From assembly GCA_030621915.1 (NCBI GenBank), contig JAUXGV010000005.1, positions 1 to 34,974 of the forward strand: a stretch of 34,974 nucleotides of DNA, given 5' to 3'. Under the pieces are notes generated by a model. That model ran no database searches, was not told where the DNA came from, and saw only the letters and a program-made list of their open reading frames with translations. Positions 3,988 to 5,645 of this stretch are shown here, piece after piece. This DNA comes from Flavobacteriaceae bacterium (GTDB taxonomy: Bacteria > Bacteroidota > Bacteroidia > Flavobacteriales > Flavobacteriaceae). A program made the position numbers and the translations under genes. Each line of letters starts with the position of its first letter. The first letter of the stretch is position 1.

Positions 3988-4881
3988 TTAATTTAGAGCA
4001 TTTACACTACCAATTTCATTGGGTAAAAATTGCTTCAAGGTAGCTTCAATGCCATTTTTTAAAGTAATAGTTGAGGAGGGACATCCATTACACGCTCCTT
4101 GTAATATCACATTAACTTCTTTTGTTTCTTTGATATATGATAGAAACTGGATATTCCCTCCATCTCCTGCTACTGCAGGTTTTATATATTCATCCAAGAT
4201 AGATATAATTTGTTTGGAAATGTCATCATTGGTTGGTTTAAAACCTGGTGCTAATTCAGAATTTTTAATATTTTCAATTTTTTTTGGCTGATAATTTTTG
4301 GATATAATGCGTCTGTCAGATTGTAAATATTCTTTGATAAAATCTCTAATTTCAGTATTAATTTCAAACCATTCAATACTTTCATCTTTCATTATAGAAA
4401 TATAATTATCTGAAATAAATACTTCTTTTACATATGAAAATTCAAAAAGTTCCATTGCTATAGGAACTTCTCTGGCTTCATCCCTAGTGGAAACCTCAAT
4501 ATTTTGAGCGGATAATAATTTGTTAGTTACAAATTTTTGAACACTTGGATTTGGAGTGCTTTCAGCAAATACTTCAATAATAGATGTTTTATTTTTAGGA
4601 ATAAATATTGATTCATTATCCTGTAAATAGTTAGAAAACATATCTTTTAATTCTTCTTGTACTTCATGCCATTCAAGTATATCAAATTTTTCGATCGCAA
4701 TAAAATTAGCAGTTACATACACATTTTTCACAAAGGGAAGATGAAATAGTTGTTTCACCAAATCAGAATTTTTAGCGTCCTCAACAGAATGATATTCAAA
4801 ACTATTTTCAGTTAACATTTTGTCAAAAACAAATTTTATGATGGCTGAATTGTTCGTATTTTCAATTTTTATATTCGACAT
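3988..4881 (-). CDS. NifU family protein with two Nfu N-terminal-like domains and a C-terminal NifU domain
   Basis: C-terminal GACNGCPSSTITLKNGIEATLK with CxxC; two internally similar ~90-aa Nfu_N-like segments precede it. Confidence 0.88.
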   Translation of the reverse strand: MSNIKIENTNNSAIIKFVFDKMLTENSFEYHSVEDAKNSDLVKQLFHLPFVKNVYVTANFIAIEKFDILEWHEVQEELKDMFSNYLQDNESIFIPKNKTSIIEVFAESTPNPSVQKFVTNKLLSAQNIEVSTRDEAREVPIAMELFEFSYVKEVFISDNYISIMKDESIEWFEINTEIRDFIKEYLQSDRRIISKNYQPKKIENIKNSELAPGFKPTNDDISKQIISILDEYIKPAVAGDGGNIQFLSYIKETKEVNVILQGACNGCPSSTITLKNGIEATLKQFLPNEIGSVNALN

Positions 4882-4910: not shown

Positions 4911-4939
4911 CGAAAGATTTTTTTCTATATTTGAATATA

Positions 4940-5110
4940 AACCCAGATTTTGCATTAGAATAACTATTCCGTATTGAAACTACTGCAAAATAAGATATTT
5001 AAATTCACTTTAAAATCGAACCATAACTTATGCTATGATAAAATTTTAAAGTGAATTATTTTATTGCATTTTCAAACCTCATTACGAAATTCTAATGCAA
5101 AATCTGGGTT
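4940..5110. mobile_element. MITE-like non-coding palindromic element, ~171 bp
   Basis: Perfect 21-bp terminal inverted repeats AACCCAGATTTTGCATTAGAA (4940-4960) / TTCTAATGCAAAATCTGGGTT (5090-5110); perfect inner 15-bp inverted repeat AATTCACTTTAAAAT (5002-5016) / ATTTTAAAGTGAATT (5043-5057); central CATAACTTATG palindrome. Possible 3-bp TAA duplication if the end is ACCCAG...CTGGGT. No ORF inside. Confidence 0.75.
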
Positions 5111-5135
5111 AATGTTAAATTAAATAAATTGGGTC

Positions 5136-5645
5136 ATGATAATAAAGGAGTTAAAGGGGGTAAAACCAATTTTTGGTAAAGCTTGTTTTTTTGCAGAAAA
5201 TTCTGTCGTCATAGGAAATGTTGAAATGGGAGATCAATGTAGTATTTGGTATAATGCGGTAATTCGAGGGGACGTTAATTATATTAAAATGGGTGATAAA
5301 GTAAATGTACAAGATGGGGCAATCATACATGCAACCTATAAAGTATCACCAACTAATATTGGAAATAATGTTTCGATTGGCCATAATGCCATTGTACATG
5401 GATGTACTATACATGACAATGTTTTGGTAGGTATGGGAGCCATCATTATGGATGATTGTATTATTGAGAGCAATTCCATTATTGCTGCTGGAGCTGTCAT
5501 AACAAAAAGAACAATTGTTAAGTCTGGTAGCATTTTTGGAGGAATGCCAGCAAAAAAATTAAAGGATATTAGTGAAGAACTAATATCAGGAGAAATTGAT
5601 AGAATTGCTAATAACTATATAAAATATGCAAGTTGGTATCAATAG
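5136..5645 (+). CDS. Gamma carbonic anhydrase family / left-handed beta-helix hexapeptide protein
   Basis: Hexapeptide repeats VVIGNVEMGDQCSIWYNAVIRGDVNYIKMGDKVNVQDGAIIHA and the GHNAIVHGC histidine motif. Confidence 0.9.
   Translation: MIIKELKGVKPIFGKACFFAENSVVIGNVEMGDQCSIWYNAVIRGDVNYIKMGDKVNVQDGAIIHATYKVSPTNIGNNVSIGHNAIVHGCTIHDNVLVGMGAIIMDDCIIESNSIIAAGAVITKRTIVKSGSIFGGMPAKKLKDISEELISGEIDRIANNYIKYASWYQ

Follow-up and report, generated by a model that had tools for sequence, protein, structure and literature searches.

The element described here lies in a 254-bp gap between two divergent genes, within a window of 34,974 nucleotides (the whole stretch of DNA that was analysed). The left neighbour is an nfu gene and the right neighbour encodes a hexapeptide-repeat protein. 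The features of the locus are listed below in window coordinates.

3988–4881, minus strand: nfu gene (NifU-like scaffold; Pfam Nfu_N and NifU), the left neighbour
4926–4933, plus strand: promoter-like TAnnTTTG box TATATTTG of the hexapeptide/carbonic-anhydrase-like gene, conserved in the genus (orthologous-gap alignment)
4937–4941, no strand: left target-site copy, 5 bp, decayed (ATAAA; family consensus TTNAA)
4942–5108, minus strand carrying the family-conserved fold: 167-bp element, a putative miniature transposon or MITE (boundaries from the target duplications in 76 copies; covariance model; fold energy)
4942–4960, plus strand: left terminal inverted repeat CCCAGATTTTGCATTAGAA (perfect inverted match to 5090–5108; IS1380-family elements have the same ends)
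5002–5016, no strand: left arm of the inner stem (perfect 15-bp inverted repeat with 5043–5057; inner helices covary in the family)
5022–5032, no strand: small central hairpin CATAACTTATG, where the family has a conserved GCATAG..CTATGG tip
5043–5057, no strand: right arm of the inner stem (perfect 15-bp inverted repeat with 5002–5016; inner helices covary in the family)
5090–5108, minus strand: right terminal inverted repeat (perfect inverted match to 4942–4960)
5109–5113, no strand: right target-site copy, 5 bp, decayed (TTAAT; family consensus TTNAA)
5136–5645, plus strand: hexapeptide-repeat gene (gamma-carbonic-anhydrase-like; Pfam Hexapep), the right neighbour

An earlier note on this DNA had described perfect 21-bp ends, an inner 15-bp inverted repeat and a central 11-bp palindrome, with no ORF. 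The ends are indeed exact reverse complements (AACCCAGATTTTGCATTAGAA at 4940–4960 and 5090–5110), the inner repeat is present (AATTCACTTTAAAAT at 5002–5016 and ATTTTAAAGTGAATT at 5043–5057), and no ORF of 80 amino acids or more lies within the element. The central 11 bases (5022–5032) are also there, but because their number is odd they do not form a perfect palindrome; they make a 5-bp stem around one C. Folding, which the note had proposed as a check, gave −68 kcal/mol for the minus strand and −55.6 kcal/mol for the plus strand, a stability far above chance on both (z = −12.2; 0 of 200 shuffles equally stable). With the covariance model, positions 4942–5108 scored 143 bits on the minus strand.

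A BLAST search of the source genome found three more copies at 74–77% identity, two of them at contig ends, showing that the element is dispersed and multi-copy, and further copies turned up in several species of the genus. The covariance model gave 25 matches in the own genome, a count that includes second-strand matches of the same copies, and at least 10 full-length copies were read there directly. Hence the element has the properties of a MITE: it is 167 bp long, below the limit of about 300 bp, occurs in many copies and contains no transposase gene. One congener had 20 covariance-model matches, two complete congeners had none, and an Aquimarina genome (G222) had 110, corresponding to about 100 copies of the element. 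When an even sample of the phylum was searched with stricter filters, a strong match was found in 4 of 297 genomes, including the own genome. The matches are patchily distributed, as expected of a mobile element. Searching with the exact end pattern matched at least 117 stretches; among the matches listed, the core of the element occurs only in records labelled Bacteroidota or its subgroups, including Aquimarina (the same family as the window's host), Tenacibaculum, Maribacter, Dokdonia, Galbibacter, Algoriphagus, Cyclobacterium, Labilibacter, Carboxylicivirga, Saprospiraceae and others. Several copies in G222 are identical at different sites, which points to recent movement, and have perfect target duplications; the same genome carries a frameshifted IS1380 copy, and its element copies look like the outcome of a recent burst.

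Orthologues of the hexapeptide gene are present in 20 of the 22 genomes of the genus, and the empty site that the note had proposed to look for was common among them: 18 of 19 orthologous gaps lack the element and are 79–99 bp long. Removing the element and one target copy from the gap in the window leaves 82 bp. The likely promoter box is kept just upstream of the insert, which lies about 8 bp beyond it. Given the Bacteroidota promoter consensus and the position of this box, the element probably lies in the leader of the hexapeptide/carbonic-anhydrase-like gene, that is, in the 5′ part of its transcript. With ORFs called by length only, none of the copies is inside an ORF, and their orientation relative to genes shows no clear bias (36 tandem, 14 convergent and 11 divergent), which argues against a function for the adjacent gene and in favour of one in the life of the element itself. 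The nineteenth gap (G004:C86, L031, approximately 802–1059) holds a different, unrelated inverted-repeat insert of 258 bp with ends CCTGAATTCGACCTAAGG. This end has 7 matches in its own genome, G004, and 2 in G018, and the insert folds more stably on one strand (−97.6 versus −73.2 kcal/mol); it is possibly another MITE family.

The boundaries of the element follow from the family. Perfect 5-bp repeats border 61 of the 76 two-ended copies with flanks, compared with approximately 24 for shuffled partners. They are mostly TTTAA or TTAAA, giving the target consensus TTNAA, and the variable middle base agrees in 68 of the 76 copies (34 shuffled). Perfect duplications flank 19 of 20 copies in the Aquimarina genome, and one copy there has TTTAT on both sides. 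This last copy places the outer AA/TT in the target, outside the element, which therefore runs from CCC to GGG (4942–5108 in the window). A 3-bp TNA duplication with ACCC/GGGT ends was ruled out, as the outer bases match too and the copy with TTTAT on both sides does not fit it. For the window copy the earlier note had considered ACCCAG/CTGGGT as outer ends, flanked by a 3-bp TAA duplication; TAA is instead the middle of a decayed 5-bp duplication, and the true ends are CCC (4942) and GGG (5108). The duplication of the window copy, ATAAA/TTAAT, has two mismatches, and the copy is 64–71% identical to the others read in the own genome, so the insertion is old.

The note had not been able to name an IS family. 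The ends allow such an assignment, to IS1380, because IS1380 insertion sequences of other Bacteroidota have the same end sequence. Looking for insertion sequences with the same ends, we found IS1380 transposases at L067/L104, L091, L183, L150 and L202, and an intact one at L179. The L179 element has an intact transposase ORF, ends CCCAGTTAATTCATTAGA and TCTAATGCATAAATTGGG, and TTAAA on both sides, and its protein is 44% identical to the transposase of L091. The latter, from Aquimarina, is an IS1380 element with two such ends that passes the NCBIfam cut-off across most of its length and is frameshifted; L141 is another IS1380 element with two such ends. Two contigs of a further Flavobacteriaceae genome start inside a transposase gene whose stop codon lies within the same end sequence, and the C-terminal 102 residues, the only part available, match IS1380 weakly in both NCBIfam and Pfam. 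Thus, the terminal inverted repeats match those of autonomous-type IS1380 elements (L067, L091, L141 and L179), and both the ends and the duplication length match the transposase-bearing L179. The named relative ISEcp1, also of the IS1380 family, makes 5-bp target duplications, as reported for ISEcp1 units (PMC10100714). The window element therefore resembles the IS1380 insertion sequences (L179, L091 and L067) in the CCCGNATTATGCATTAGAA-like ends of the Bacteroidota members and in the 5-bp duplication, and differs from them in lacking a transposase gene and in having an unrelated core. By inspection, no internal sequence from IS1380 was seen in the core, and only the ends of about 19 bp are common to the element and the insertion sequences; sharing of ends with IS1380 is supported, descent of the core from IS1380 is not. 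A search of the own draft genome, which is 77% complete, gave no IS1380 transposase, which leaves current mobility in that genome unsupported. On a metagenome contig labelled Verrucomicrobium spinosum (L202, DYRQ01000050.1), an IS1380 transposase with 63% identity to that of Aquimarina adjoins the same end; this reflects either transfer across phyla or wrong binning.

The core keeps its pairing throughout the family. In an alignment of 54 copies, 46 stem pairs form in 94.1% of cells, compared with 33–51% for slid partners and 80.5% for shuffled ones, and compensatory changes on both sides occur in 35 of the 46 pairs (359 cells versus 87 shuffled), figures from a MAFFT alignment that is not structure-aware and shuffle statistics that are inflated by the relatedness of the copies. 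The pairing is also strand-specific. With the orientation of copies set by sequence motifs and not by energy, 53 of 53 copies share the strand on which they fold better, the mean difference being 13.7 kcal/mol (the outlier core L146 was excluded). In a second set, 28 of whose members were not in the first, all 30 copies fold better on that strand, and the model strand equals the motif strand in all 30. Because the copies are related, changes were counted on a tree, which is rough for such short sequences, giving 106 changes from Watson-Crick to G-U versus 20 to A-C in a structure that had been predicted with G-U allowed. For this reason pairs were also chosen strand-neutrally, and G-U again exceeded A-C in total (197 versus 52), in columns (40 versus 9) and in tree events (117 versus 38). 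A double-stranded cruciform or neutral decay predicts equality, so the excess argues for constraint on one single strand, which appears to be the minus strand in the window. The unpaired segments CAATAAA and TTTGMAG and the GCATAG tip are conserved in the family as well. Compensatory changes together with strand-specific pairing that tolerates G-U on one strand are what is looked for in a structured RNA. The earlier note had set covarying stems against an insertion; here both hold, the element being an insertion with covarying stems. We consider it probable, from these sequence comparisons, that the fold on one strand is selected. That the folded strand acts as RNA is the simplest choice and seems somewhat favoured, and single-stranded DNA with G-T pairing may be the folded form. 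Rfam gave no match at the gathering score; weak matches below the threshold, mostly to microRNA families, were taken as chance.

Several other explanations were weighed. MITEs are usually regarded as decayed leftovers, their hairpins a mere consequence of inverted repeats. The element could be a passive one, in which the palindrome comes from inverted repeats and the covariation from template-switch repair and shared descent, with no strand under selection. Template switching in quasi-palindromes can produce paired changes, and the copies are related in a way that the shuffle control ignores. Such an element should show as many G-U as A-C pairs, however, against the 197 and 52 found strand-neutrally, and the persistence of the unpaired segments and the tip also counts against it; we regard this explanation as unlikely, yet as one to be taken seriously. 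The element could also be an RNA that regulates the nfu or carbonic-anhydrase-like gene in cis, as a leader, an attenuator or a terminator, and is retained for that role; this would fit the position just after a likely promoter box and the covariation of the stems. However, the element is absent from 18 of 19 orthologous gaps, its copies adjoin many unrelated genes with no clear orientation bias, target duplications are the mark of an insertion, and in the leader of the carbonic-anhydrase-like gene the conserved fold would be antisense, which makes this role very improbable.

The two remaining alternatives concern the type of mobile repeat. IS982-family genes and remnants are present in the genus, and known MITEs of Cardinium and Porphyromonas come from IS982 and IS5 (PMC9769881, PMC4596501), so a parent in one of these families was considered; it is IS1380 elements that carry these ends, though, and we give another parent family very little weight. 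The first candidate to be examined was IS982, whose intact element in the genus (L051) has other ends, ACGTGAGTTCGACGTAA; an IS5-type transposase fragment in L054 lies near a look-alike end for which there was no matching second end. The earlier note had also allowed for a REP/BIME-like repeat, and a REPIN-type repeat moved by a RAYT transposase would likewise be palindromic, intergenic and multi-copy. REP and BIME repeats are built of palindromic units of 20–40 bp and lack target duplications, whereas the present unit is approximately 167 bp long, with 5-bp target duplications and 19-bp DDE-type ends shared with IS1380, and we discount this origin almost entirely. The note's other suggestion, a non-autonomous insertion element, holds up: the copies are dispersed, target duplications flank them, orthologous sites are empty, and there is an IS family with the same ends. 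We give a probability of approximately 0.9 to the element being a miniature transposon that IS1380-type transposases move in trans.

The repeat family, boundaries, duplications, empty sites, IS1380 ends, covariation and strand bias are all established computationally; that IS1380 moves the element, that it is transcribed and what its fold does are inferred. On this view the window contains a single copy of a non-autonomous miniature transposon whose copies have spread across Bacteroidota. Its 19-bp ends would be recognised by an IS1380-family transposase supplied in trans, and insertion at TTNAA targets would duplicate 5 bp. By inspection, the long-hairpin core is not insertion-sequence DNA; its pairing appears to be kept strand-specifically by compensatory change. 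The element would thus probably work as a folded single strand, RNA being the likeliest form, in aid of its own spread or persistence and not of an adjacent gene. Only tentatively do we propose the full form of this reading, a mobile folded RNA (or single-stranded DNA) on IS1380-type ends whose fold is needed for spread or persistence and which is not a passive remnant. If this is true, the fold could, for example, recruit the transposase or a host RNA-binding protein, or limit read-through.

The transcripts of other bacterial MITEs of 100–200 bp, such as Correia/NEMIS and ERIC, form long stem-loops (PMC2229807). The present element is similarly small and intergenic, with inverted ends and a long stem-loop as RNA, the last being predicted here, whereas those repeats have other ends and TA target motifs and occur in other phyla; strand-specific covariation was measured for the present element alone. 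The bcr repeats of Bacillus cereus are likewise MITE-like, some with conserved secondary structure, and are transcribed in UTRs; they are confined to the B. cereus group and are not known to have IS1380 ends (PMC3446304). Among Bacteroidota, MITECca01 of Cardinium (PMC9769881) and BrickBuilt, MITE239, MITE464 and MITE700 of Porphyromonas gingivalis (PMC4596501) also have a parent insertion sequence, but the parents are IS982 and IS5, respectively, and the ends differ, being of the kind GAGACC.. and ACGTCAGTTCGA. In the literature searched, no MITE of this kind linked to IS1380 is described, although ISfinder may list one, and neither Flavobacteria nor IS1380 appears in a 2024 review of prokaryotic MITEs (PMC10969869). 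Across the family, from Flavobacteriaceae to Saprospiraceae and Marinilabiliales, one defined fold is kept on a single strand. This makes it possible to test whether a non-autonomous transposon spreads better when a folded single strand is under selection, and what IS1380-type transposases need. For annotators, it provides a covariance model for a repeat that is absent from Rfam and reaches about 100 copies in one genome.

Short forms of 57–118 bp also occur, with both ends kept and the cores reduced (L082 1459–1521, L118 1323–1379, L129 6314–6431, L135 25–142 and L157 3163–3280); three of them are exactly 118 bp long. Two copies of the element, L016 and L017 (G006:C47), contain a GC-rich palindrome of about 22 bp (CCCGCCTTGCCG..GGCAGG) that is also found elsewhere in the genus, for example at L056 1–60, and is thus a smaller repeat nested in the MITE.
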